Shown piece by piece: positions 1 to 44,525 of a stretch of 64,000 nucleotides of DNA. The stretch's first letter is position 1, and each line of letters opens with the position of its first letter. This stretch comes from Crambe crambe (Eukaryota > Porifera > Demospongiae > Poecilosclerida > Crambeidae). Below the pieces are notes generated by a model. That model ran no database searches, was not told where the DNA came from, and was given only the letters and a program-made list of their open reading frames with translations. Made by a program: the position numbers and the translations under genes. The DNA is taken from contig OZ004591.1 of assembly GCA_963924555.1 (NCBI GenBank), forward strand, positions 2,666,001 to 2,730,000, written 5' to 3'.

Positions 1-641
1 TAAAGGATTGGATTCTTTTCCAATACTCCATCAATGAACTAAAGGATCAGGTTAAAATCATTTATATTATTATTATTATTATACCTCACGAGTTCCTCCA
101 TTGTGGCAAAAGGTACAATAGGATTGAGTCAAATAAGATGTAGTAAACAGTCTGTCACACTTGTATTCCTGTCATCATCATGTGTAAAAGAATTGCATTT
201 ATAGCTACATATTAGCTATGTATAAGTGAGTGAATTCCTATACAATAACTTACATCAATGCTCTCAACCAAATGGCCTGTTAATGATTGCAAACCCTCTG
301 CAGCATCCTGATGATGACAATTAGCAAGACTTGGCTTGAGCATGGACTATAAATGATTATACCTAAGATCATTACATACATCAATATGGCCTTCCACACC
401 TTCAAAAGTAGAATATTGACAGACTGATGACACTTCAATGCTTTGAAAATTCTGCAATACTCAGCCTGAACTTGATTCATATTTTTCATTCCTTAATTAA
501 TAACATCACACTATTATCACAAATGGCTCATCGACAAATACACTTACCATAAAGGAATTGATATAAACTTGTTGTATTCAGCAGTTGAACAACTGATATC
601 AACCAGCAGCTGTTCTCTTTATTGGGAATTCCACAAAACTT
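1..641 (-). CDS. ubiquitin-specific protease (C19)-like catalytic domain, N-terminal half, 5 exons, runs off window
   Basis: Five minus-strand exons: 641-548, 491-400, 307-254, 168-85 and 38-1 (continuing past the left edge). Phases join without a break (0 in, 1/2, 0, 0, 0). The first encodes a Cys box, CGIPNKENSCWLISVVQLL, which follows the USP pattern G-x-x-N-x-x-N-(T/S)-C-(Y/W)-x-x-S-x-x-Q with the candidate nucleophile Cys. The third begins DAAEGLQSL, like the USP Q-D-A-x-E-F-L element. The fourth holds YCTFCHNGGTRE, like the C-x-x-C zinc finger strand and following E of USPs. The His box would lie outside the window. Known role of the family: removal of ubiquitin or ubiquitin-like tags. 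Departures: the Asn/Gly of GNTC is KENSC, and E-F is E-G, so activity is uncertain. It sits directly after the mini-exon array and in phase with it, so it is probably the C-terminal part of the integrase gene at 1676-3417. Confidence 0.68.
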
Positions 642-697
642 CTGAAGTATTAGCTATACACTATAAAGTCTAGACTGGCTGAGATATAACTATGGAC

Positions 698-1585
698 CTT
701 GTAATGGGGCTGCTTGTCAGATGGTTGAAGTGGTTGCTGATAGGGTGATAGAGAAGGCTGCATATTCAAAACAGAACTAAATTGGAAATACATGTTTACC
801 TTGGAATGGGGGTGCTTGTCAGGTGGTTGAAGTGGTTGCTGATAGGGTGGTGGGGGATCCAGAGGCTGCATGTTCAAAGTGAAGGCAGAACTAGCAAAAT
901 TAGAAGTCATAGGAGGTGGAAGGTGGGGGCTGGAGGGGCTAAAGCCCCCCCCCCCCCAATGTTCAGAAGGTGGGGGCTGAGCCCCCTCAATATTTGAGAC
1001 ATCACCCTAGAACCTCAGAGAATGCGAGGCTTAAAATCCAAAATACCCCCAGACCCCCTTAGATGGCACGCTTTGCGTGCTAGTATGGTCACACTTTTTT
1101 ACACTCAGCCCACCCAAAATAGATGACCTTCCTCCCCCTATGGAAGTGCATGTTTTGACCTTGGAATGGGGCACCTTGTCAGATGGTTGAGGAGGTTGCT
1201 GATAAGATGATGGAGGAGGCTGCATGCATGTTCAAAGGTATGAAGGCAGAACTAGCAAAATTAGAAGTGCATGTTTTCACCTTGGAATGGGGCACCTTGT
1301 CAGATGGTTGAGGAGGTTGCTGATAAGATGATGGAGGAGGCTGCATGCATGTTCAAAGGTATGAAGGCAGAACTAGCAACATTAGAAGTGCATGTTTTCA
1401 CCTTGGAATGGGGCACCTTGTCAGATGGTTGAGGAGGTTGCTGGTAGGATAATGGAGGAGGCTGCAAGCATGTTCAAATGTATGAAGGTAGAACTAGCAA
1501 AATTGGAAGTGCAAGTGCATGTTTTCACCTTGGAATGGGACACCTTGTCAGATGGAGGAAGTTGCTGATAGGGTGATGGAGGAGG
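698..1585 (-). repeat. array of six tandemly duplicated Pro/Gln-rich mini-exons
   Basis: Six exons in minus-strand order: 1585-1529, 1461-1402, 1340-1281, 1219-1160, 865-800 and 757-698. Lengths are 57, 60, 60, 60, 66 and 60 bp. Each is flanked by an AG acceptor (TGCAG) and a GT donor (AAG/GT) and is phase 0 at both ends, so any subset can be spliced in without a frame change. Each encodes a unit of the type PPPSSYQQPPQPSDKVPHSK. The duplicated unit is exon plus intron, about 121 bp. The intron between 865 and 1160 is longer (294 bp) and holds a G/C-rich insertion near 920-1130. The peptide is a flexible linker between the integrase and the protease-like domain. Confidence 0.75.
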
Positions 1586-1675
1586 CTGCATTGGTGCAAT
1601 TAAGAATTTGCTAAAGTCTTTTACTTTGGAAAGGTAGCTAGCTAACTAGCTATAATGGATAATGGGGTGCATTAC

Positions 1676-3417
1676 CATGGATTCATCTCTCTTCTTGTAC
1701 ATTTTTATCCTGCTGATATTCACTTTCTTCTTAAGAATCACACCTTTCTGGTTCATAACCTTGTATATACCTTTCCCTAAACTTTTATGAATTGTATATG
1801 GTCCTAGAAATGCATCATCCAACTTTCCTCCCTTTCTTTCTTTTTGAGCAGTATTTTCAATCAGGATTTCGGTTCCAGGAGCCAATTCCTTGGGGAGATG
1901 CTTTCTGTCATAGGTCTCCTTTTGCTTTTGTTGGGATGTTTTTATATTGCTCTCAACTTTTTGAAATAATTCTTTCTTTTTCTGTAATAAAATCTCCATT
2001 GTCTTGTCCAAATCTCCTTCTTCAATAATATTTCCTATAGGAATTATTTCGTTATCAATTGGAAGACGCATCTCTTTTTGAAATAACATGAAGTAAGGGG
2101 AGTATTTGGTCGAGGCTTGACTTGATGCCCGATATCCCATTAAAATGGTATCAATCTTCTCATCCCAGTCATTATGATCTTGGTTGCACATTTTAGCCAG
2201 GCATCTGGTAAGAGTCTGATTGAAACGCTCTGTGAGCCCATTGGTCTATAAACAATATAACTATAGGTAAGATAGCGAACTTGGATAATATGTACATGTA
2301 TATAAAACACCTGTGGATGGTAGGCAGTGGTGATTCTATGCTCAGTATTTATCATAGAGTAGAGCTGTGCTGAGAGATCATTCACGAATTCCTTTCCTTG
2401 GTCAGTGTTTAAGACTTCTGGGCAACCATATCGACACATCACCTGTTCACATTAAACACAGTAATACACATCAGAGGCACATTCACTATTCAAGTTCAAG
2501 TCTGCAGCATGAAAAATAATGCTTTAGCTAAGCATGTTCAAGCCTGCACCAAAAATAGCTTTATCAGTGCATAAGCATGTTCAAGCCTGCACCAAAAATA
2601 GCTTTGTCAGTGCATAAGCATGCATGCACGTTCAAGCCTGCACCAAAAAATAGCTTTGTCAGTGCATAAGCATGTTCAAGCCTGCACCAAAAATAGCTTT
2701 GTCAGTGCATAAGCATTACAAATTAATTAGTGTAAATATTTATATTTTAAGTTTATGGTGAAAAACTCACACTGTACACAAATTTAGCAACATTTCCAGC
2801 AGTTTTATCTGTAAGAGGGGCAGCTTCAGCCCACTTGGAAAAGTAATCAGTAATTCTAATAATATATTTGTAGCCACGAGGAGTCTGAGGTAGTAGTCCT
2901 ATGAGGTCCATTCCTATTTGGCTCCATAATTGAGATGTGACAGGAATAGGATGAAGTGTACCACTTTCTTTCCTTAATTTTTTATTACTTCTTTGGCACT
3001 GATTGCATGTCTGAACCTATATGAATGTGACAGTGGTAAAATATTCTAACACTTTAGTGCTAACACTTACATATGCTGAAACTTCTTTGTGCATCAAAGG
3101 CCACTAATATTTTTTAGAAATGAGATCATAAGTCCTATTTAATCCCAGATGGTTGGCATCATGAATTGCTGATATGATTCTCTTTTGTTGATCAACATTT
3201 TCAATCACCAGCCTTGGTGGAACTGTTCTCTTTCCTATAAATGAAACTAGCTACTGATTTAGACTATTTTAATAGTAATAGTTTTACCCCCAACATAGTA
3301 GAGCTGAGCTTCCTCTATGATAAAGTATTTCGCTCTTTTCCGTAAAGAGAGTTTATCTTGTTTTTCCAAACCCTCTGGATAGAATCCAGAGTTGATGTAG
3401 TCAAAGACTAAATTTTC
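1676..3417 (-). CDS. Gypsy-like integrase (GIN1/KRBA2-like), 5 coding exons; 5' half of an apparent chimeric gene
   Basis: Exons, in minus-strand order: about 3417-3288, 3234-3071, 3016-2771, 2442-2311 and 2245-1676. All junctions are GT-AG and phases join (1/2, then 0). The product has an N-terminal integrase leader, a zinc-binding HHCC module (IHDANH then TCNQC), a catalytic core with D in GMDLIGLL and D in TDQGKEF, and the last acidic residue in HPQ/TNGLTERFNQ exactly 35 residues later, so DD35E is intact. A basic C-terminal region follows (residues near FLGPYTI). Integrases of this kind insert LTR-element cDNA; intron-bearing relatives (GIN1, KRBA2) are domesticated host genes. One in-frame TAG at 3104-3106 falls where family members have KYYWP. 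The last exon ends at a phase-0 donor (ATG/GTAATG, 1674-1676) that joins in frame to the Pro-rich exons downstream. If that donor is not used, a stop follows at about 1646. The first exon is uncertain: an in-frame TGA lies just upstream and no in-frame ATG was seen. Confidence 0.82.
2520..2715. repeat. four tandem copies of a 40-50 bp unit in an integrase intron
   Basis: The phrase ttcaagcctgcaccaaaa recurs at about 2536, 2580, 2631 and 2672, each followed by tagctttrtcagtgcataag. It lies wholly in the intron between exons 3016-2771 and 2442-2311. Confidence 0.85.
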
Positions 3418-3870
3418 CTTCCATCACGACGTACGAGTTGACATGCATATGCGCAATCTTAAGTTGACGTACGTACGTACGTAAGCTTACGTAGCAGTTT
3501 AAAGATCGCTCTTATGATGACATGCAAATGTTGCTGTTGGGTATATTGATATCAGTCTGACTCAACTCCTTTGTATAAATGCTATTAAAATTGCCACCAC
3601 TGAATGCCCCAGTGATGCCCGTGAGAGCAAAGAGTCGGGACAGAGAGAAATCAGACATTGAGGGTGAGTTCAAACTCTCATCTGATCTCCTTCTGCTACC
3701 CATAAAATGTGATGTTGGCTCGTTGGAGGAGAGGAGAACTTTCACACACATGTACATAGCTACTAATACCAAGAATAGCTACTCAACTTTTGACATAGCT
3801 AGGGATGAGATATCAAAATTAGCGGATGGTGTCCCCTATCTACTAGATAGCTTCCTGGGATAGGGTAAAA
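3418..3870. other. unassigned stretch upstream of the integrase gene
   Basis: Holds a run of CGTACGTACG at about 3470-3482 and two overlapping open frames on opposite strands (3579-3863 plus; 3772-3512 minus, Ser/Arg-rich). Neither has recognisable motifs or convincing splice sites. It could include the promoter and first exon of the minus-strand integrase gene, but I cannot show it. Confidence 0.3.
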
Positions 3871-3874
3871 AAAA

Positions 3875-6125
3875 AGATATAAGATATAGGTACCATTCTG
3901 CATCTGTAGATATGGAGACCGTCTCCATATCTACAGATGGAGATGGTACCTATATCTACATGTATGTAAATTTATATCTTTATCAACTGGGATATGGAGA
4001 ATGGTACCTATATCTACAATGGAGAATGATACCTATACTTAATGTAGATTCGTGGATGAGATATTCTTTGATCAACATACAATCCAAGACTCGTCGATAA
4101 AATATCTTTAGATCAACATGATGAGGTCCCCATATCTACAGATAGAGAATGGTACCTATATCTATGTGGATGAGATGAGGTCCCCATATCTACAGATTAA
4201 GGATTCCATGATAAATAGAATGGTGTAGATTTGTGGATGAGATATGTTGATCAACATAAATTAGGGGGTGTGGTCCCCATATCTAGGAATATTATGATGA
4301 GGTATCAACGTACATTTAGGGATGGGATCCCCATATCTATGGTTGGTTCCAATAATAATAATGAAGATTCATGGCCATATCTACAGGTGGAGAATGGTGT
4401 AGATTCATGGATGAGATATTAATGGGGTCCCAGAGAGTGGTATCCTTTGATCAGTATACATTTGGGGGTACCTAGCTATATCTATGAAGATTCGTGGATG
4501 AGATATCCCATTCTCCATTGTAGATGTATGGGGACCCCATCCCAAAATTTGTTGATCAAAATATCTCATTCACAAATCTACACCATTCTCCATCTGTAGA
4601 TATGGGGACCCCATCCCCAAATGTACTTTGATCAAAGGATATCTCATCCACGAATCTTCAACTAGGTGCGTACCATACTCCATTGTAGATATGGGGACTG
4701 TGTTGATCAAAGGATATCTCATCCACGAATCTACATTGATATTAGCTAGGTATGCACCATAGCTACTCCATTGTAGATATGGGGACCCCATCCCCAAAAT
4801 CAATGTATATTGATCAAACAAGATACCTCATCTAGATATAGCTAGGTACCATTCTCCATCTGTAGATATGGGGATCCCATCCCTGAATGTACTTTGATCA
4901 AAGTATGAGATATCCTTTGATCAACATAGTACGATGGGCCGGGGTCCCCATAACTACAGATAGAGAATAGTACCTCTATCTATGTATCTACAATGGAGAA
5001 TGGTATGTATGAGATATCCTTTGACCAATATACATTTGGGGGATCCCCATATCTACAATGGAGAATGTTACCTATATCTGTGTATATAATATCCTTTGAT
5101 CAATATACATTAATTTTGGGGACGGGATCTACAATGGAGAATGGTAACTATACATCTAGCTATGTATAGCTATGAGATATCCTTTGATCAACATACATAC
5201 GATGGGGTCCCCATATCTACGATGAGTAGATTTGTGAATGAGATATCCTTTGATCAACACATGATGGAGTCCCCATATCTACGATGGAGTATATGGTACC
5301 TGGATGAGATATCCTTTGATCAAAGTACATTTGGGGATGGGGTCCCCATATCTACAGATGGAGAATCGTGTAGATTCATGAATGAGATAATTGTTTTGAT
5401 TGGGATGGGGTCCCCATACATTTACAATGGAGAATGGTACCTATGTCTATGTATGAGATATCCTTTGATCAACATAGTACGATGGGGTCCAATGGAGAAT
5501 GAGATATCCTTTGATCAATATACATTTAGGGATCCCCATATCTACAATATATATCTGTGTATGTAATATCCTTTGATCAGTATACATTAATTAATTTTGG
5601 GGACGGGGTCCCCATATCTACAATGGAGAATGGTAATATATACGTATCTAGCTATGTAGCTATGAGATATCCTTTGATCAACATACATACAATGGGGTCC
5701 CCATATCTACAGATGGAGAATGGTGAAGATATTTTGATCAACAAATTTTGGGGGATACATCTACAATGGAGAATGGAGATATCCTTTGATCAACATAGTA
5801 CGATGGGGTCCCCATATCTACAGATGGAGAATAGAGAATGGTACCCATATCTATGTATGAGATATCCTTTGATCCCTACAATGGAGAATGGTACCTATAT
5901 CTGTGTATGTAATATCCTTTGATCCATATACATTAATTTTGGGGACGGGGTCCCCATATCTACAATGGAGAATAGTAACTATACATCTAACTACGTATAG
6001 CTATGAGATATCCTTTGATCAACATACATACGATGATAAGATATTCAGCAACCGCTTTCTTGGCTATATATACAGCTACATGAGACTATCCGCATAGAGA
6101 GCTACAATCTGCATCAGGATGGGAT
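3875..6125. repeat. degenerate satellite array with an internal orientation switch
   Basis: Dozens of imperfect copies of a unit of about 70-90 bp built from three phrases: gagatatcctttgatcaaca, ggggtccccatatctaca and gatggagaatggtacctata. Copies read forward from 3900 to about 4500, inverted from about 4500 to 4920, and forward again to 6060. Within the last part a longer block (from ttaattttgggga to gagatatcctttgatcaacatac) recurs near 5092, 5567 and 5912, a higher-order repeat. Open frames here are by-products of the repeat. Confidence 0.9.
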
Positions 6126-6342
6126 CCCATCCCAAATCTATGATATGTATCTCATCCAAAATTTAGGCCCTTTTGTAAATATGGGGACCCACTCCATTAT
6201 TGAATGTACAATAATAACCCTTTTGTGCTGTTATAGGTGTCAAATTTCTAGTACAGCATCGTTGAATCTACAGATATTATTGGAGGTTGTTGCTTTTCAT
6301 TTTGGATTTTTGCTGAAAGTATGGTATACAGAGGAATCTGAC

Positions 6343-6343
6343 C

Positions 6344-6396
<53 letters not shown>

Positions 6397-6460
6397 TATT
6401 GTTATTATTATCATTATTATCATTATTACCTATTATTAGTAGTAGTAGTAGTATTATAAT
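6343..6460. repeat. (TTA)n microsatellite
   Basis: Nearly pure ATT/TTA triplets followed by TCATTA and AGT triplet variants. Confidence 0.95.
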
Positions 6461-7778
6461 TTTATTACTACTATATTATTATAAAATAAAATAATTATAA
6501 TTATGAAAAAATAGTAGTTGTTGTAGTAATGATTAAAATATGAATAAGAATTAATGCAAGCTAGGATAATGTATATATTTGTATTGTATCAAACTTGGCT
6601 ATGATCGAAACTGTGGTCCATATGACAGCCTCAAACTCTGTATTATTCAACCTTAAAACAGTTTACATGATGTATTAGCTATAGCTAGGCTAACTTACCC
6701 AGCTTGAACTGCAATATTTTGCTCTCCCTCACTTTTGTCCAATGCTGTATAAAGCGCGCGAGGATTGGGGGTGGGGGGTCCCAATATCTATGGTAGTTTT
6801 AGGGATGGGGGGTCCCTAGAACTACGGGGTCCCCAAAACTTTATGACACCGGTATCACTATCTATACGGTAAAAAGATGGTCAAACTTTAGTATCCATAG
6901 GTAACTTACTAATGCCATAAATTCAGTAGAGCAAAAGCAGTTTGGAAGAGAGATATTCTCACTTCAAGAAATAAGTATTCAATAGAATTAGGATGTAGGT
7001 CTAGAACTTCAAGGTTGCTGGGTTTCTACGCTTAAAGCCTTAGGGAAATAGTGTTTACGACTTCAGGTATTGGCATGCTATAATATAATATCCATAGGCG
7101 TATGCATGTGCGTTGTCTAGATAACGAGCGTAGCTATATAAGGACGTTTCTGTGTGCATTTTTTGTATCACCCTGATGAAGGCTAGAGTATTCTGGTCGA
7201 AACGTTGGTGGTTTGTTTCATAAGCTAATTTTATGAGAACTAATTCTATTGAATTTTTATCATGTTAGCTGAGAATAAGCAGAGTAAGAAATAAGTATAT
7301 GTACAAAACTTGTTGGGGTGAAAATGTCCATAAAAAGAGCAGTTGAGCATTATTTTTTTATGAATCAGCTGCAACTAGGATTGGGATATCGCTTTAGCTT
7401 GTTTATAACAAGTGTGCTACAATGATAATCTAATTTTGCTCAGTTAGAGGTATGATAGGGTCTTAACTGGTCAGGGGAAGAACATCAGTACTATGATATT
7501 AAATGAAAAGCTCCATCATGCAAATACTAAAGCTAGGACTAGATTATCGCTTGAGCGATGTAAGATTTGGTGTACTCTTGTAATGATGCACTTTTGCTAA
7601 GATCTATAATTATTATTATAATAGCTGATGTATACTGACATTGGATGCATATTATGATCAGCTATGGTGAAACCGCTTAGCCAATCGAATAACATGACAT
7701 ATATCTAACTGAAACCATAGATATAGCTAGCTGTGCATTGTGCATGTAGCTACATAAACTATATAGCTAGGCTATCAT
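6461..7778. other. no gene recognised
   Basis: AT-rich sequence without a coding exon I can support. It contains a short G-rich patch (6765-6835) that resembles the ggggtcccc phrase of the satellite to its left, and the possible ribozyme motif at 7144-7206. Confidence 0.4.
7144..7206 (+). ncRNA. possible hammerhead-like ribozyme core
   Basis: CTGATGA at 7173-7179 is followed by GGCTAGA (7181-7187), a GTAT loop, TCTGGTC (7192-7198) and GAAAC (7199-7203). The two 7-mers pair with G-U wobbles, as stem II would. ACGT at 7144-7147 followed by T could pair with ACGT at 7202-7205 as stem III with a NUH cleavage site. Against it: an extra A lies between CTGATGA and stem II, and stem I pairs poorly. 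Hammerheads are common in metazoan retroelements. Confidence 0.25.
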
Positions 7779-9483: not shown

Positions 9484-12290
9484 TCAAGCCTGCTCGGCTA
9501 TGGCAAGGTCAATGGCAGCATCGCTGATTTTTTGGAGTACTGGATGGCCAGGTGTGGAGCAGGATCCCCGGAGGCACATAATGGCAGAGCGTAATAGGGA
9601 GAAGCTGATGCTGCATCTGAGCCAATCCATGGTTTGGCTGTAGGACTTGTTGTTCTTGGAGGCAATCAAAGAAGCTAATCTTTTAAACATGACTGTAGTT
9701 GAAGGTCCCATACCGCCAGAGGACGTGAACACTAGGGAAGTGAAGCAACCAAGTTCTATTTCTCTCACTCTTTGGTCATAGGCTCTTCTTTTTTCTTGTT
9801 TATTCCTCCTATATCCAGTAGTCAAGGGGACGTTTCGATAGGAGTGTGCGAAGGGATTGAACACCCTGACATCAAAAAATGCACACTCTCTATCATCGCC
9901 CCAGAAACCTTGAGCTTTGATGTCTAGTCGAGCTCCGTCCTCTCTATTGGCTGTCCTGAGGTCTAGAATTTCACCGCTGAGGGGTTGAAGATGTGGTTCA
10001 ATACCTACGTTATGGCAGACTTCACTGAGTAAATGAGCGGTAATGTCTCTGACTTCGTTGTGTCTAATTGAAGGGAAACCTCCAAAAGGACAGCTCAGGG
10101 CATGATTTATGGTGAATTCTTTGTTGTAAATACAATTTGCTGGGAGCATGGAGGGGATCCACCCGTGTCGTAAACAGAGGGTGTCCTTGAAAGCACCTTT
10201 ATGTAGAGCAAAGCCATGTTCTGAAATTGGCAAGGTGGTAAGCCAGCTGGAGGCTCCCTTTTCCTTTGAGACCTCAACAGCACATTTAAGTGAGGTTGGG
10301 AGTTGAGTGAGAAGATCATCCACTTTGATTCCCTCCTGGTCTTACATACTGATTTTTTTTGATTCTGTAGTTCACAAATAACTTCAAAATTGAGTTCGTT
10401 TGCTTGTTCTTTTAGGAGGTTGACAATGGGTGTGGTGACTCTGCGGGAGAAGGTGTATTGGCTGGATGATTCTGTTACTGGGTTCAAGATAGCGAGACCC
10501 CCAAGACGAGATGGTAAGGTCATAAGGATTGATTGAAGCTACCTTGCCCAGATATCGTTGGTAGAAAGACTTGATGTATTTTTGCCTCAAGGGGTGCGAG
10601 CAATTTTTGAATACCCTCATTTGTGCGACAAAGGTATGTCCACTTGCTTTGGAAACCATGGACATAGGCAGAGTAGGCAGCATGGGGTTGGCTGGTGGCA
10701 ATCTTTGATAAAGTTTCGAGTTCCTCGGTCAGGGATGTTAGGACGAATTTCTCCTTGAATGCTTTAGTGCCAAGTGCAGCTCCCAGCTGTGTTATCTTAC
10801 GCCACCAGTTTTGTGTGTCTTGGATTCTGCCACCGGCAGCACATACCAGGTTTGGGTGCTTTTGAGGCGCTGTATTAGCGGGACAGTGGCAATGGCATAC
10901 ATAGCCATTCCCAAAGGGTCACCTTGGGTGGTCCCTTCACGAGAGTGAATTGTTTCACCATCTACAAAAAGATCAATACTGGATCGGTGTGTGTTGATTA
11001 AAATTCTTGCTAGTGAAGGGCAGTAATGCTGGACATTTCTTAATGCAACTTGGTGGTTGAGGGAGTTGAAGGCATTCGAGGCGTCAACCAGGAGTATACC
11101 CTCAGTGTCGGATGAGTTGTAGAGATCATTCATGACATGAATAGCTGCTTCGCAGCCACTCTCATGGCCGGCTGACAGCTGTGATACTCCTGAGGCTTCC
11201 AAGATATCATGCTTTAATACTCTGGCAATGGTTTTACCGATAATTCTCCTTACTGTTTTACCGATGCCTATAGGTCTGACTCCAGTTCTTATCCAAAGCG
11301 ATCAAATTCTGTGCAAAGTCTTCTGGCTACTGACGCGATGGCCTGACAGAGATCAGTCGAATGGGCTCCAAATTATACACATAAGCGCTTCCAGCATGAG
11401 GCATCAAGTCCTGATGGTCCGGCAGCACCATTCATCCCGAGAGCTATACTTCTTATCAGTTGGCCATCCAAACAGTCAAAAATGATGGAGTGTGTATCAG
11501 CAGGATAAGTTTCGGCTGACTGGAGTGTAGAAGGACTAGCTGTATTCAGTGGCGGATATTTTGATAATAGCAGCTCTCTTACTGTTTGCTTGCATCACCA
11601 AGATGAATGGATTTCTCCAGAGGAAGGACTTCACCTCTCCTCTCACTGGATAGAAGTTTTAGGGCAGCTTTTACTTGACCCTCTCCCATCAGTTGGTTGA
11701 ACAAACGGGCTGGATTGTCTTGCTCTGATTTTCGTTGGCATTTCGTCGGATGCGCCTCTGAATTGCCTCTCCTTTTATGACAAGTTCTTCTATCTGGCCC
11801 TGTTTCCATAGTAAGAGTCGACGGGCCAGATGGGTGGCATTTTCCTTTGACTTCGAGTTTTTATTGGATTTTTGGAGTAGCTAGAAGGGCTGGCATTGTT
11901 AACACAGCCTTCAGAGCGATACCCTCTAAAGAGCTATGTATGATCTCCATATTCCTTGAAGAGTCTGGCCATCTCGCTAACAAACTGATTTCCTGCTTTT
12001 CCTGAAGGTACACTGAATAAGTTCATTTTCCAGTGGACTATTTGGCATAATGGATTTTGAGAAGGAGTCTCCATCCACAGCTCCCCACATAAAGGAGGGT
12101 GGATGGGCATTTTGGAAGGGGGTGAATTGATGAACTGTTCAGGGCAGGGTGTGGTGGATGATGAGATAGAGATTGAATGGTTGTGAAAGACTTGGGGGAA
12201 CTTGCATACATGGCTTGTCACGAAATATTTGATCCGGGGAAATATTTTGTCCAGGGCGGACGAAAAATTTGCAATTTTTTGTCCGGCACT
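9484..12290 (-). pseudogene. RLE-type non-LTR retrotransposon (RT plus restriction-like endonuclease), frameshifted
   Basis: Minus-strand fragments in order: 12290-11934 (RT N-terminal region, NLFSVPSGKAGNQFVSEMAR), 11809-11579 (LFNQLMGEGQVKAALKLLS), 11202-10792 (RT palm: DASNAFNSLNH and GTTQGDPLGMAMYA), 10701-10384 and 10523-10330 (thumb), then 10323-9484. The last piece has a zinc-knuckle-like C...H-x3-C (NHALSCPFGGF), the R2-like RHNEVRD...EP element and an R-x-D...FFDVRV nuclease core. In R2/CRE/NeSL-like elements the RT and this nuclease carry out target-primed reverse transcription. Several frameshifts and a gap between 11202 and 11579 show it is dead. Two shorter copies of the same family lie at 42975-43415 and 43717-44450. 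Confidence 0.85.
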
Positions 12291-12956: not shown

Positions 12957-14950
12957 ATGGCAGTCATCTCAGCCAAAAATGATCTGCTCAATGTATGGGC
13001 TGACCATTTCTCCACCCTGTCCAAAACCCATCTTCAGGTGGAAGAAGGCCTTCAGAACCTAGATGAGAAGATGAACGACCTCGCTAGTGCATCTCTATCA
13101 AATGAAGAGTACGTCCTTGACGTGCCTTTCACACTGGATGAGGTCATCATTGCAGTGATGAAGCTGAAGCTGGGGAAGTCTGGGGGCCCTGATGGAATCG
13201 TTGCCAAGCACCTCAGGTGGGGTGGAGAGATACTCCACCTGTGGCTTCAGAGGGTGCTTAATTCCATCATTAAGATGGAAGTGATACCCCCCATGTTTAA
13301 GGCAGGGCTCCTTTGCCCAGTCTACAAGGGAGGAGGAAAAGATCCCTTTATTACTAACAACTACCGTGGCATCACTATGAACTCAGTGCTATCGAAGGTC
13401 CTCGAGATTCTGGTCCTGTCAAGAATGGAGGGGTGTCTTGCTGAAGCTGGTTAACCACACCTCAGCCAATCTACCTTTCGCAGGCATGTTGGATGTGCTG
13501 ATGCATCCCAAGAAATGATAGCAAGGTACATGAAGGGAGGTTCCACTGTGCACATGTGCCTCCTGGACCTCCAAGAGGCTTGCGATAGCGTGGAGTTCCC
13601 GGTGCTTCTAGACCGTCTATTTTCCATTGGCATCAATGGCAAGACCTGGAGACTCATCAGGAACTGGTATGAAGGAGGAACGTGCAGTGTCCAAGTCGAT
13701 GGTGCAGTTTCAAAACCATTCTCCATTGAGAGAGGTATCTGCCAAGGGTCAGTACTGTCCCCAACCCTCTTCAACATCATCATGGACCCCCTTCTGAAGT
13801 CGCTGGAGTCCTCAGTCTTGGGGCTGTGTGTGAATGGCTTATACGGCGGTGTCTATACCTTCACGCAGATGATGTTAGAACCCTGTCTGCCTCAGTGTCC
13901 TCTCTCCAGGCCCAGATCAATCTTGTACTCAGCTTTGCCAGGGAGAACTTTCTGCAGCTCAATCCGAGCAAATGCGAGATTGTATCTTTCAGTCAGAACA
14001 ACAACATCCAACACCCTGCTTGCAAAATTGAGGGGGAAGTCCTCCAGGCAAGTGGAATCGCCAAGTGCCTTGGCTACCAATGGAACCATGACCTCTCTGC
14101 TAAGCCATCAGTGGAATATAATGTCTCAAAGGCAAGGAAGTCCTTCTTTGCATATGGCAGTGTGAGCCTCTTCCAGGGAGACCTGTCACCTTTATCTGGA
14201 AGGTCAATGGTGGACACATGCATCCTACCCATCCTAAATTGGTGCCTATCACAGAACTCTATACAAGCACTAGACTTCTTCCTCGGAGAACTCAGCAAGA
14301 GACTCCTGAAGCTCCCACAATGGTATTCAAACACCCCAGCGTGCATAGCAGCTGGACAGAGATCTACCAGAGCACTGTGCCTCACAAGGAAATTGAACTT
14401 CTTCAGAAAATCTCGGCAAAAGACACCAATGAGGTTGTGAGTGCCCAGACTTTAGCATCACTCTCAGACGACATCAACTCTACCTGCCTAGTTCGGGAAT
14501 GTAGGGACCTGGAGCACTACTTTGGAACAGATTTCATATCAGCTATCCTTCAAGAAGGAACTGATTCCTGTCCCCACCCACACGAAATTAAGGAGGACAT
14601 AAGCTCAAAGGATCATGATCTGCTGTTAGCCAAGCATGAAGGAAGGGCTGACATGTCCATTGTGGTGGAGGTGGAGAGTGAAATTGGATGGCCACGATTA
14701 TAGGACCTCGCGCTAGACAATGGTGCCAGGTGCATTGAAGGGCTGAGGAATCTCTTACAGGTGATTACATTCCCACCCCATGCCATGCATGCTTGCCCCC
14801 TATGTGAGAGAGAAGACATGCATCTGCAGAGACTCCCTGCTCAGCCACGTCCTCAACACTCACACCAACTGACACCTCAGCAGCAAAGAACTCCTCCGAG
14901 AGCTTTCATCTGTCACAGATGCTGACTCAGTCTTCTTCAACTAATTATGT
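12957..14950 (+). pseudogene. APE-type non-LTR retrotransposon, reverse transcriptase portion, 5'-truncated and broken
   Basis: The RT begins with the fingers region (LKLGKSGGPDGI, NNYRGITMNSVLSK) at 12957-13451, then an in-frame TAA at 13452-13454. It continues in the same frame with LDLQEACDSVEFPVL and GICQGSVLSPTLF (13455-13856). A one-base insertion near 13857 shifts the frame; the catalytic HADD box then reads in the next frame (13860-14385). A second shift near 14390 leads to the C-terminal part (to 14703, stop) and a zinc-finger-like tail (CPLCE, about 14793). No endonuclease domain lies upstream. The A-F-D of the family is A-C-D here. The 3' UTR probably reaches about 15050. Confidence 0.85.
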
Positions 14951-30079: not shown

Positions 30080-31489
30080 ATGGCTGAGCTCTCTCACAGG
30101 AAGAATGTGCGTGGGGGGCACAGGGCATCTGCAACCAAAATGGTGAAGAAGGCTGAAGAGTTAACGTTGTTGGCCCAAGAAGACCCAAACAAGTCACAGA
30201 TGACCAGTTTACAGGAGAAGATGAGCATCCTCAAAGGGCTTGACTCTGAAGTAGTGGACTTGGTGAAGGAAGAAGAAGTTGCTAGTGATATAGAGCAAGC
30301 CGATGCCTACATGGAAGACATCTACGACACTATAACCAAGCTGGAGCAGCTATCTCTGAAGACTTCCACCACTGCTGCTTCCACCTCTGGACCTTTGCCC
30401 ACCAGAAACCCCACCAGTGAGTCCAAAGTAAAGCTTCCTAAGCTTACGATACAACCATTCAGGGGAGAATTGACCACCTGGATGACATTTTGGGATTCGT
30501 TCGAAGTTGCTATCCACAGCAATCGATCACTCTCCAATGTCTAGAAGTTTTAACTACCTCCGTTCTCTGCTGCAAGGACCTGCCCTTGATGCCATTGCTG
30601 GGCTCACTCTCACAGATGCCAACTATGATGAAGCTGTCCAAGTGTTGACCAGTCGATTTGGAAACAAGCAGCTCATCATTGACCGATACATGGAAGTACT
30701 ACTGAGCTCTGAAGCTGTTGTTTATGACTCGAACCTGAAAGCATTGAGACATCTGTATGACACTGTTGAGGCCCAAATCCGTGGACTGAATTCGATGGGG
30801 GTCAAGCCAGAGACGTATGGAGCGTTGCTGTCGTCGGTCGTGCTGGGGAAGCTTCCGCAGGAGATTCGACTTTTACTGAGTCGTGGGATGGGAGATGGTG
30901 ACAGAAAGCTTACTGACCTGATGAAGCTCTTGCTCAGTGAGTTGCAAGCACGAGAGAGAGCGGCAGCTAGTAATTTAGCATCGGGCAAGGGGCGGGGAAA
31001 GGTTATAGCAAACCCTACTGCTGCAGCCTTGCTTGCTGGAGGCTAGAGAGCCACACCCATTTGCTATTACTGTCAACAGTCCCATTTGTCACTTAGGTTG
31101 TGTCCATTGATGAGAGGAAGCGCATTCTCAGAAGCGCTGGCCGATGTTTCTTGTGCCTGCGTAGGGACCACATCCTTCGTCAGTGCAACTCCAAGAGCAA
31201 GTGCCCAAGTTGCAGTGGTCGCCATCATGGAAGCATCTGTGGTGGACAGCAGTCAACATCGAATGAGCCGAAGCTGAAGCCCAACCAGGAATCTGGACAA
31301 CCTTTGAAGACCTCAACCAACGTATCCACAGGTATGAACCCAGATGCAGTTCCCTTCCACCCATCCGTATCAACTGCATCCAAGTCGTCTACATCCACGT
31401 CTACATCCACGTCTACATCCACGTCACTTGGACTAGTGGCAACCAAGCCATCCTACTACAGACAGCCAGAGCCAATGTCTACAACCTGA
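30080..31489 (+). pseudogene. BEL/Pao gag with nucleocapsid zinc knuckles, frameshifted
   Basis: Starts MAELSHRKNVRGGHRAS; the coiled N-terminal part is followed by LTTWMTFWDSFEVAIH, the usual retroelement gag core. The frame is lost near 30538 and resumes (FNYLRSLLQGPALDAIAGL) to a stop at 31046. After another shift the nucleocapsid appears at 31100-31350 with CFLCLRRDHILRQC and CPSCSGRHHGSIC knuckles, then a Thr/Ser-rich repeat from a (GTCTACATCCAC)n stretch. Confidence 0.85.
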
Positions 31490-31504
31490 CTGCCTCAGAG
31501 AAAT

Positions 31505-31990
31505 CTCGATGAGTACGAATGATTTCGACTCTGGGAGCCCAATGTGAGGGAGCAGGTAGCCAAGGGCCTTTCACTGACCTTAGAAGATGAAAAATCACTG
31601 ACGATCATGACCTTTGGATCGAAAAGAGAGCAGACCCGTGTCTGCAACCTAGTGAGACTAGGACTGACCATGAAAGATGGAACCTCGAAGCAACTGAAGC
31701 TATTCACGGTTCCCATGATTTGCGAGCCAATTATCAGCCAGCCTATTTCGATTTGCTGCAACAACTTTGATCACTTAGCTGGGATGGACCTCGCAGACTA
31801 CTCGAATGGTAATGAAAGTCTAGAAGTCGACATTCTGATTGGATCTGACCTGTACTGGGAGCTGGTAACTGGGGAGATGCAACGTGGGAACTCTGGACCC
31901 GTGGCCATTTGCACGAAGTTAGGGTGGGTTTTGTCAGGGCCCACTGCCGGATCCGGATGATCCTGACTCCTATTTGATAACCCACTCTTT
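31505..31990 (+). pseudogene. BEL/Pao aspartic protease region (A17/DUF1758-like)
   Basis: Contains VDILIGSDLYWELVTGE and VAICTKLGWVLSGP, the typical end of the Pao protease region. The catalytic D-T/S-G region further upstream is not clear and the region is bounded by stops. Confidence 0.8.
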
Positions 31991-32765
31991 ATGTGTCGAC
32001 GGTCTTTCAAGTAAGTTGCAGCAATTAGACAACAGAATCAAGTCGTTCTGGGAGCTAGAGTTGTTTGGCATTTCAGCTTCAGAGCGCTCCGTCTACGATG
32101 ATTTTGGAAGCTCGATACAACTAGTAGATGGGAGGTATGAAGTTCAACTCCCATGGAAGGAAGGTCATCCAGCGTTAGCAGACAACTACCAACTTTGTCT
32201 GAGACGTCTACATGGGCTAACGAAGCGATTAAAGCAGGAACCTGCTATTTTTCAGGAGTACGACACAACAATTCAGAATCAGATCCAGCAAGGAATCGTG
32301 GAGAGAGTTAAGCCATCAGAGGAAGACCCAAAGTGTGTCCACTATCTACCACACCATGCCGTGGTGAGACAGGACAAGCAAACCACCAAGGTTTGTGTAG
32401 TCTATGATGCTTCTGCCAAGTCTGCTGGCCCTTCCCTCAATGAGTGCCTGCATGTTGGACCCAAGTTGAACACAAAAATCTTTGATATCCTGCTGAGATT
32501 CAGGGTCCACCGCATTGCCATCATAGCAGATATAGAGAAGGCCTTTCTTATGATTTTGGTAGCCACCTAGAAAAGTCGAAGCTACTCGACCTGACCTCAT
32601 CAAGAAGTTGCTGAGATCATTGTACGTCGATGATTTGGCCTCGGGAGCTGAAGACGAGGAGCAAGTTTTCCAGATGTTCACATTGTCCAAGGAGATTTTG
32701 AACTTCAACCTTAGAAAGTTTTACTCCAACTCTGAACCATTAATCCTGATGAAACCCTTCTGAGC
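31974..32765 (+). pseudogene. BEL/Pao reverse transcriptase, internal deletion
   Basis: 31974-32570 includes the linker FWELELFGI and the RT start (KVCVVYDASAKS, NECLHVGP, ADIEKAFLMI). The stretch that should follow is missing: the frame breaks at 32570 and the catalytic YVDDLASGA box appears only about 20 codons later (32618-32645), so roughly 50 or more residues are deleted. Confidence 0.85.
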
Positions 32766-32830
32766 ACAAAGCCTGAGTCAGCAGCTATTGAAGAGCTTAT
32801 GAGACCTACTCTAATTCTACTCTTGGTGGA

Positions 32831-34205
32831 ATGCAGAAGCTGCGTCGTGGTGAACAGAAGGTGCTTGGCATCAGATGGGATCTGTCTATGGATCAGCTCG
32901 TGATCAACCTTGATGACATTACCTCAGCGGTAATGTCACTCTCTGCAACGAAAAGGAACATTGTAAGCCTGGTCGGTAGGTTTTACGATCCCCTTGGATA
33001 CCTGGCCCCTGTTGTTGTCCAGTTCAAGCTCTTTCTACGAGACCTTTGTGAACCAAAGATCGATTGGGACCAACTTCTCCCTGGTGAGCTGATGGACTCG
33101 TGGAAAAGTCTGAAGTTGAGTTTGCAGGAGTCCCAATTCCTCGGTGCTACTTTGAAGGCATCTCATCAGCAGTACATTGTGTGGGTTTTGCGATGCTTCC
33201 ACCAAGGCCTATGCCAGTGGCGTATCTAGAATTTGAGCTAGGAGGGTGCTAGATAGAGAATGCGCGCATAAGCGCGCGCGAAATTTTTGCGAACCACGCC
33301 CACTTTTGATTAACCACATCCTCTTTATTATACCCAGATGATGGCCTAAGTATTAGCTACCCTACTTTACCAGCGTACAGGATCAGAAGTGAGGTGCAGG
33401 CTGAATAAAGAAGCACAGAAATTTTAGATCGAGATGTGCATTATTTAGGGTAAAAACGTGCCGGGCGCATGCGCCTCACCGATGTGATTATTGAACTCTG
33501 ACCCAATGCTGCTCTTTCTGTGAGTGTAATATTAAACTGCTTGCTAGATGATCAGCTTTAGGATAGATAACTATAGAAGCGAGCCTACTGAAAAAGCTAG
33601 CTAGCAGCTGAGGGGGGTGCTCGAGCACCCTGAGCACCTCGCTAGATACGCCACTGTATGCGGGTGTTGTGTATCTATTACTAGAAACAAGTTCAGGCTA
33701 CTCAGTGAGATTTGTTACAGCAAAGACCCATGTTGCACCACTTCAACAGCAGATGATACCCCGTCTTGAATTGCTCTCGGCACTTCTTCTCGCTCGTCTT
33801 TCGTCCACTATTACCAAAAGCCTTGGATATGAGTTTACACTGTCACCCCCCTACTGTTTTACTGATTCAATGATTTGGATCAAGGGGAGTCACAAGACAT
33901 GGAAGACCTTCGTGCAGAATCGAGTGGCTGAGATTAGAAGTTTGGTATCGCCTGATTGTTGGAGACATTGCCCAGGTACAGAAAATCCTGCAGATGTTCC
34001 CTCAAGGGGAACCACACCACTGGAGCTTTCTACCAAAGTGTTGTGGCACACAGGACCTCCTTGGCTTGGTCAGGGTGAGCTCAGTAGAGGTGCGGCTGAT
34101 GAAGAATTGCTACCCCCAGAAGGGTGTTTGTCAGAGCTCAAGAAGAATCAGTCTCTAATCCATGGACTGCTAACTGCTGGGACTGAAACTGAGCTAGATA
34201 ATTGA
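32831..34205 (+). pseudogene. BEL/Pao RT thumb and RNase H region, split by a MITE
   Basis: 32831-33214 encodes LGIRWD and FYDPLGYLAPVVVQFKLFLRDL, hallmarks of Pao pol, and ends within the RNase H start. The 442-bp insertion at 33215-33656 interrupts it. 33657-34205 resumes with KTHVAPLQQQMIPRLELL and the CPGTENPADVPSRG tail. Confidence 0.88.
33215..33656. mobile_element. MITE with CAGTGGCGTATCTAG ends, 5-bp duplication
   Basis: CAGTGGCGTATCTAG at the left and CTAGATACGCCACTG at the right; TATGC repeated at 33210-33214 and 33657-33661. Ends are hAT-like. No coding. Confidence 0.88.
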
Positions 34206-43544: not shown

Positions 43545-43715
43545 TATAGACTGTGCCATCAACAGGCAAGTGATCTGGACTATCTGCCATTCAACAGGCA
43601 AGTGATCTTGACGAGGCAAGATCACTTGCATTCGAGGCATTAATTATAGACTGTGCCATCAACAGGCAAGTGATCTTGACTATCTGCCATTGAACAGGCA
43701 AGTGATCTTGACGAG
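43545..43715. repeat. tandem repeat between two RLE fragments
   Basis: Two copies of taattatagactgtgccatc plus aacaggcaagtgatct units, with an embedded hairpin gcaagtgatcttgacgaggc / aagatcacttgc. About 95-bp unit. Confidence 0.85.
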
Positions 43716-43716
43716 G

Positions 43717-44525
43717 TTTTGGATCAGCACCAAAAAAGACTCCTGACCTCGTGCAGGGATAAAGGGTCGTCCATCTGGCTCACCTCCTTACCCATTGAGG
43801 AACATGGTTTCCACCTACTTAGGGATGCACTTTGTTTGCGATATGGATGGACTATCCCCAACACTCCTCAATTCTGTATCTGCAGAAACAAATTTGAAAT
43901 TGACCATGCTCTAAGCTGCAAAAGAGGTGGCTTCAAGATCCAGAGGCACAATGAACTTCGTGACTTTACAGCTACCCTCCTAACTGAAGTGTGTCATAAT
44001 GTATCCACAGAACCCCCACTCCAACCATTACAAGGAGAAATTTTCAATTATCGAACTGCTAACACTGACTCTGAAGTGAGGCTTGATATTAAAGCTAGAG
44101 GATTCTGGAACCGAGGCCAGGATGCATACTTTGATGTTAGGGTTTTCAACCCAAATGCTCCCAGTTATCACTCCCAGGATCTGACACATTTATATCGAAG
44201 GAATGAACAAGAAAAGAAGAGAGAGTACAACCAGAGAGTCCAGAAAGTAGAGGCCGGTGTGTTCACCCCCTCGTTTTCTCCACTTCAGGCGGCATGGGGA
44301 AAGAGAGCAGTGTGTTCTACAAGGGACTAGCTGATTTTTTATCCACGAAAAGAGACATGCCATACTCAAGGACAATGGGATGGCTTCGATGCCGCCTCAA
44401 TTTTGCCCTACTACACTCTGCTATTTTATGCATAAGGGGTTCTAGATAAACAAGAAAAAATCCACTTCTCGAAACTGACATTAATCTTGCCTCAGCAGAG
44501 AGCAGACTGTCATCAGACCCTGATT
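43717..44525 (+). pseudogene. RLE-type non-LTR fragment: zinc knuckle and nuclease, copy 3
   Basis: 43719-44330 encodes LTSLPIEEHGFHLLRDALCL, CRNKFEIDHALSCKRGGF, RHNELRDFTATLLTEVCHN and VRLDIKARGFW...YFDVRVFNPNAPSY, the same domain order as 10323-9484. A shift near 44290 then gives FYKGLADFLSTKRDMPYS and LRCRLNFALLHSAIL to a stop near 44450. It diverges enough from copies 1 and 2 to be an independent insertion. Confidence 0.85.

Follow-up and report, generated by a model that had tools for sequence, protein, structure and literature searches.

In this study, we analyzed a 64,000-nucleotide stretch of the genome of the sponge Crambe crambe (the window; assembly GCA_963924555.1, contig OZ004591.1, positions 2,666,001 to 2,730,000, or C14:2666001-2730000 in the contig names used here), together with the neighboring 10 kb and the 143-Mb assembly as a whole. 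The left part of the window holds a copy of a Ginger1-type DNA transposon of 12,241 bp (C14:2660608-2672848), which runs from window position 6848 leftwards past position 1. We consider it likely that this is a copy of a cut-and-paste element whose gene is predicted to encode a transposase composed of an integrase, a linker, a ubiquitin-specific protease (USP) and an Ulp1 protease, the two proteases being proposed to shield transposition. An initial annotation, made from the window sequence alone, had described positions 1 to 3417 as a chimera of an integrase and a USP comparable to a captured Gypsy-type host gene such as GIN1; our analyses instead identified a multicopy transposon with terminal inverted repeats (TIRs) and CCGG flanks that starts at 6848 and carries a second protease, of the Ulp1/SENP type, beyond the window edge.

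Application of splice rules to the DNA sequence produced a minus-strand gene model of 32 exons joined by 31 introns, all of them GT-AG, including those outside the window, that begins with a YPYY-like integrase segment and ends with the stop codon at C14:2663168 (window position -2832). The predicted order is integrase, Pro/Gln mini-exons, full-length USP domain and SENP-like Ulp1 protease, and beyond window position 1 the gene extends 2.8 kb more and the element 5.4 kb more (Table 1). Downstream of the USP Cys box NKENSCW lie QDAAEG, two CxxC pairs, the His box GHY and the Asp in HIND, and the Ulp1-type domain that follows has SHW and SDCG and, in relatives of this copy, also MDS. The path proposed by the initial annotation, from the integrase through the mini-exons to a KENSCW Cys box (present in exon 641-548), could be read with GT-AG borders and phase kept, including the joins at 1676/1585 and 698/641, although between exon A and the Cys-box exon the model counts 11 introns, not the 16 junctions given in that annotation. 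Part of the linker lies within a tandem array of ~121-bp units at window positions 1143-1591, in which each unit holds one Pro/Gln mini-exon and part of an intron. Because the number and sequence of the mini-exons vary among element copies, linker length seems to evolve through the gain and loss of these units.

Table 1. Features of the Ginger1-type element in the window, in window coordinates.
Feature	Position	Strand	Remark
Target-site duplication CCGG, element 5' end	6849..6852	.	partner CCGG outside window, adjoins C14:2660608
In-window portion of 12,241-bp Ginger1-type element	1..6848	-	starts TGTCATAAAGTTTTGGGGACCCC at 6848, leaves window leftwards to C14:2660608
Satellite-like internal repeats, GGGGACCCC / ATCAAAGGATAT units, between TIR and gene	3900..6000	.	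borders approximate
Exon A, integrase N-terminal part, YPYY-like segment	3288..3407	-	5' border unsafe; exon extends 11 bases further in four relatives
Exon B, H2C2 zinc-finger part	3071..3234	-	in-frame TAG at 3106-3104 in window copy
Exon C, integrase core, first catalytic Asp (GMDLIG)	2771..3016	-	
Exon D, integrase core, second catalytic Asp (TDQGKEF)	2311..2442	-	
Exon E, catalytic Glu (GLTERF) and GPY segment (FLGPYTIHK)	1676..2245	-	C1, C6 and C8 copies 94-99% identical
Six Pro/Gln mini-exons (PPPSPYQQ..DK type)	698..1585	-	part within 121-bp tandem array
USP exon G, Cys box NKENSCW	548..641	-	
USP exon H	400..491	-	
USP exon I, QDAAEG box	254..346	-	
USP exon J, first CxxC	85..168	-	
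USP exon K, in-window part	1..38	-	remaining USP, SENP-like Ulp1 domain and stop outside window

The ends of the window element (TGTCATAA...) are flanked on both sides by CCGG, and their inverted similarity extends over ~86 bases, although imperfectly, with the first 8 bases exact and 29 of the first 40 matching. The same 5' end occurs in the copies on C1 and C6, whereas in the C3 copy it sits inverted on the opposite side and the C8 copy is more diverged at that end; these four relatives and the window copy are referred to as family 1. The C1 copy is bounded by this end and its inverted partner, which delimit an element of 12,422 bp with CCGG on both sides. A pattern made from the family-1 end (up to 3 mismatches) had 119 matches in the genome versus 0 for the reversed control, and several opposed pairs among the 100 matches listed lie only 1-2 kb from each other, a distance that short non-autonomous relatives would be expected to show. 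The satellite-like stretch between the TIR and the gene is also found, rearranged, in the C1, C3, C6 and C8 copies.

The domain content was established most clearly for the C1 copy, which is stop-free in every exon. The Pfam profiles rve, H2C2 and UCH, whose use the initial annotation had advised, all matched its product: Integrase_H2C2 (PF17921, 3.1e-19), the H2C2 zinc-finger profile PF09337 (1.4e-8), rve (PF00665, 2.7e-10) and UCH (PF00443, E 3.8e-21, across profile positions 1-254 of 254), as did Peptidase_C48 (PF02902, E 3.8e-21). The catalytic signature of the integrase has the spacing D-58-D-35-E, in agreement with the DD35E type read earlier from the window. Its YPYY and GPY segments (GFYPEG...KYF...LYYVG and FLGPYTIHK) were recognized by eye, not by alignment with the published motif. 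Across three families of the element described below, USP residues C12, H249 and D267, which we take to be catalytic from an alignment with USP14, are invariant, as are the CxxC pairs C111/C114 and C168/C171. Ulp1 residues H115, D132 and C175, presumably its His-Asp-Cys triad, are likewise invariant and align with SENP1. Among solved structures, the Ulp1 part matched SENP1/SENP5 and the USP part matched USP14, USP12 and USP5 with a profile of the three families, the match of a single USP sequence being weak (best 3.9e-4). SENP1/SENP5 and USP14-type enzymes are host proteins that are not known to be fused to an integrase; the Crambe domains resemble them in sequence over the catalytic domains, with the catalytic residues aligned. 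C19 USPs and SENP-like C48 proteases belong to families that cut after ubiquitin or SUMO tails.

The copy in the window is broken. In addition to the in-frame TAG in its zinc-finger exon, which the initial annotation had overlooked, the 11 bases missing at the start of its first integrase exon are present in four relatives, and an Ulp1 exon (VVKPQEKLIIFMDSS...) absent from it is present in the same four, two of which have lesions there. It was this extra exon in the relatives that led us to drop an earlier Ulp1 model with exon W in a different frame; the corrected model raised the C48 score of the C1 copy from 54.7 to 76.3 bits. Stops or frame changes of their own occur in the C6 and C8 copies, and the C3 copy has a partial deletion and a rearrangement. 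The broken window copy would depend on protein supplied by another copy.

Searches of the whole genome revealed that the arrangement is repeated many times. Exon-level matches at E<=0.01 numbered 122 for the USP part and 102 for the Ulp1 part, and grouping of 118 and 101 of these, respectively, gave 28 USP loci, at 21 of which the USP is preceded by an integrase and followed by Ulp1, all in the same orientation. This result supports, as a prediction, the earlier proposal of a C19 deubiquitinase joined to an integrase, and an assembly chimera was rejected on the recurrence of the same order at those loci on many contigs. The seven remaining loci (C10:3108k, C18:3929k, C19:2702k, C3:2522k, C3:3019k, C9:4369k and C9:5390k) are without one or both partners among the matches listed, although a missing integrase is not firm as the integrase searches scored the best 150 candidates. 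By position and identity, the 21 loci with this order comprise family 1 (five loci), family 2 (12), family 4 (one) and family 5 (three).

The family-2 end pattern TGTTGCAGTGATTTCTGTTTCC (up to 3 mismatches) had 48 matches versus 0 in the control, and 11 opposed pairs of these ends, 11.0-14.5 kb in length, enclose integrase, USP and Ulp1 loci. The 4-bp flanks are identical in eight of the 11 pairs (CCGC and ACGG twice each, CCGT, GCGG, CCGG and CCCC once each) and differ by one base in the other three. The pair with CCCC on both sides is the copy at C10:3997402-4008486, and this flank is outside the usual CCGG/CCGT target set. The single family-4 locus, C6:4574k, is degraded: it has a partial integrase, a recognizable C-terminal half of the USP and an Ulp1 part, no Cys box was found in it, and a CCGG-TGTTATAGTG end upstream resembles the family-2 end. 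Family 5 (C13:2254k) has an integrase frame of 855 residues in one exon in which Pfam detects rve alone, without H2C2. A pattern search of 9 kb around this locus found no Ginger-type ends, and any mobility of family 5 is putative. This second type of integrase occurs at C13:2256k (one long exon, local positions 2068-4635), C5:7077k, C18:3947k and C18:3928k; the USP-Ulp1 cassette follows it at three of the four places, and C18:3928k has a USP without Ulp1. In searches for relatives elsewhere, residues 500-1096 of the C1 product, used as a protein query, had none at E 0.001 among 5599 candidates, the three-family USP alignment had none among 3802 candidates, and scans with two short peptide patterns each had none in viral contigs (122 stretches) or prokaryote genome contigs (150 stretches).

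The cassette is better conserved between families than the integrase that precedes it. Identity to family 1 is 61% in family 2 and 46% in family 5 for both the USP and the Ulp1 domain, and 40% and 27%, respectively, for the integrase. Spliced alignment of the family-2 copy on C9 and the family-5 copy at C13:2254k divides the USP into 10 exons in each, the number also present in family 1. The same C9 copy has six integrase exons in spliced alignment, but one of these depends on a gap of 23 bases and probably reflects either a lesion in this copy or an alignment artefact. Within family 1, the ratio of nonsynonymous to synonymous change (omega, dN/dS), calculated from exons present at equal length in both copies, was 0.16-0.62 in nine comparisons with C8.

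The assignment to Ginger1 was made because the ends, the CCGG duplications, H2C2, DDE and the YPYY- and GPY-like segments fit the definition of this group in the relevant passages of Bao, Kapitonov and Jurka (2010; PMC2836005). That definition includes a 4-bp target duplication of CCGG or CCGT, TGTNR ends, TIRs of ~40-270 bp, and a transposase with H2C2, DDE, YPYY and GPY/F followed by a C-terminal OTU or Ulp1. The TGTCA ends of family 1 and the TGTTG ends of family 2 both match TGTNR. As they are described there, Ginger1 elements are ~2.6-7 kb with 0-4 introns, the protease is fused to the integrase in one transposase, and each transposase has OTU or Ulp1 "but not both"; Hydra Ginger1-9 is listed with Ulp1 and PHD. 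The Crambe element agrees with these descriptions in its H2C2/DDE integrase with a GPY-like segment, TGTNR ends, CCGG duplication, introns and protease after the integrase, and has inverted, although imperfect, termini, but differs from them in its tandem USP and Ulp1, its ~30 introns and its size of 11-14.5 kb. A C-terminal Ulp1 is present here also, but it is preceded by a UCH domain, unlike in the published members as described in those passages. The initial annotation had named Ginger solely as a carrier of other proteases and not as the type of element to which the feature itself belongs.

Canonical Ginger1 relatives exist in the same genome, at C1:5343k, C5:3067k, C9:2643k and C14:1723k, all four with CCGG or CCGC on both sides and with integrases 60-69% identical to that of family 1. 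The nearest are C1:5343k and C5:3067k (68-69%, CCGG ends), with the C9 relative at 61%, and tblastn in 20 kb around each of the four found no USP-Ulp1 tail of the new type. In place of that tail, the C1:5343k relative has a divergent C48 domain (9e-5) and then a PHD finger (1.5e-7) by Pfam, and the C9 tail is similar by eye. Two kinds of tail, USP-SENP and Ulp1-PHD, thus coexist on related integrases. A seven-row integrase tree places family 1 together with the canonical elements and separates them from family 2 (100/100), but does not fix how family 1 and the two canonical groups branch; in an eight-row tree with family 5 added, the family-5 branch was too long to place. The integrase identities (69% to canonical elements versus 40% to family 2) suggest, without proving, a tail swap into family 1, which is a natural reading. 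Three canonical copies (C1:5343k-5346k, C1:5356k-5358k and C5:3067k) are near-identical, and the two on C1 are ~11 kb apart in opposite orientation.

Beyond Ginger1, two known systems are comparable in part. The protein XP_001314237 of Trichomonas, mentioned in PMC2836005, joins peptidase C19 to a transposase_11 and resembles the Crambe element in having a C19 deubiquitinase linked to a transposase, but its transposase is of another family and the passage mentions no second protease. The initial annotation had rightly called a C19-integrase arrangement unfamiliar. Helitrons and Helentrons carry VTD and OTU deubiquitinases, which its authors suggest may keep the proteasome from degrading transposition proteins (PMC9741609). 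They are similar to the Crambe element in having one or two deubiquitinase domains in a transposon protein, but they are rolling-circle elements, the VTD and OTU folds are not USP, and the passages of PMC9741609 concerned name no SUMO protease. Searches of the open literature revealed neither a Ginger carrying a USP or two proteases nor an earlier description of the integrase, USP and Ulp1 combination; Repbase Reports and subscription papers were outside that search, and a description in Repbase only is possible.

The domain order, element ends, target duplications, retained catalytic residues and recurrence at 21 loci are direct readings of the DNA; the role of the proteases is proposed by analogy with the arguments in Bao et al. 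(PMC2836005), who suggested that domains of this kind influence ubiquitin and SUMO pathways while transposition takes place, and in the Helitron VTD work (PMC9741609). From what is known of Ginger1, and from the flanks, the integrase would cut the element and insert it at CCGN-type sites. The linker would form a flexible Pro/Gln stretch tethering both proteases to the integrase, and the tethered USP and SENP-like domains could remove ubiquitin and SUMO either from the transposition complex or from factors of silencing or repair in its vicinity, leaving the complex less degraded or silenced. The double tail thus probably protects transposition against control by the host through ubiquitin and SUMO, and it is possible that the USP protects the integrase itself, as had been proposed in the initial annotation.

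Several of our results weigh against this reading and must be set beside it. Every one of the five family-1 copies is flawed somewhere, and even in the C1 copy one Ulp1 exon is without an AG acceptor in the model. The evidence of selection within family 1 rests on few changes: for the USP, two pairs have omega values of ~1.1 with one synonymous change, and one pair has none. Between the C1 and C8 copies there is little contrast in identity between exons (0.960-0.980) and introns (0.944-0.972), although the introns are gappier. The function of the proteases is itself an inference. In addition, the join of integrase to USP rests on splice rules, and an in-frame ATG (MQP...) stands directly before the acceptor in five of the six window-copy mini-exons, so that translation from an internal start may give USP-Ulp1 as a product of its own. 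The last point could indicate that the transposon contains two genes, one for the integrase and a second, transcribed separately and carried along with it, for USP-Ulp1; the joined model was derived from splice rules rather than from reads. We regard this as unlikely, since the phase-0 GT donor of exon E is retained in the window, C1, C6 and C8 copies, all six mini-exons of the window copy have lengths that are multiples of three and are in phase, and an open Pro-rich stretch likewise separates integrase and USP in the one family-2 copy looked at (C9). The fusion of protease and integrase in one transposase in the published Ginger1 elements, as described in PMC2836005, argues in the same direction.

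Other explanations accept a single product but differ as to its origin or use. Two cysteine proteases behind a flexible linker resemble the layout of a polyprotein, and they might process the transposase itself rather than act on host ubiquitin and SUMO. This appears improbable, since full USPs and SENP-like C48 domains, as present here, belong to families that cut after ubiquitin or SUMO tails, and Pfam scans (E up to 1) of the integrase, USP and Ulp1 parts, with the linker outside the scan, listed no ubiquitin-like domain. The lesions in the tails of several copies, that of the window among them, could mean that the tail is a decaying passenger without present function, but both proteases have kept their catalytic residues in families only 46-61% identical to family 1, the USP has kept its 10-exon structure and the proteases are more conserved than the integrase (27-40%), and we consider decay rather improbable as well. 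We give very little credence to capture of a Gypsy integrase as a host gene fused to a host deubiquitinase, even though an integrase and a USP in one open chain with many introns are reminiscent of GIN1: family 1 has five loci, family 2 adds 11 elements with defined ends, TIRs and CCGG duplications are present, and copies have stops and deletions. A domesticated gene of the GIN1 kind, single-copy and without ends, was rejected on the copy number, element ends and target duplications.

Elsewhere in the window, open frames at positions 30486-34205 resemble by eye, from their motif, a putative BEL/Pao-type retrotransposon. Overlapping broken open frames at 13455-14703 are, by eye, a candidate non-LTR (long terminal repeat) reverse transcriptase. 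Two related open frames at 9484-10341 and 43680-44330 share HNE(V/L)RD(I/F)TA..LL(S/T)EVCHNV and are probably parts of one repeat family.

A wider possibility, which we put forward tentatively, is that the USP-SENP cassette is a mobile counter-defense module of Ginger-type transposons that, when tethered, would remove ubiquitin and SUMO at the target. Such a cassette may have kept its 10-exon USP and its catalytic residues while being paired with both a five-exon Ginger1-type integrase and a one-exon integrase that has no H2C2 by Pfam and is 27% identical to it. If this is true, the cassette would make this the first transposase, to our knowledge, that acts on both tag systems. Bao et al. noted, in the passage concerned, that the presence of OTU, Ulp1 and C19 domains alongside transposases implies that the ubiquitin pathway has a part in transposition (PMC2836005). 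That an integrase is combined with both a deubiquitinase and a SUMO protease within a single predicted protein, in several families within one genome, makes such a role testable.

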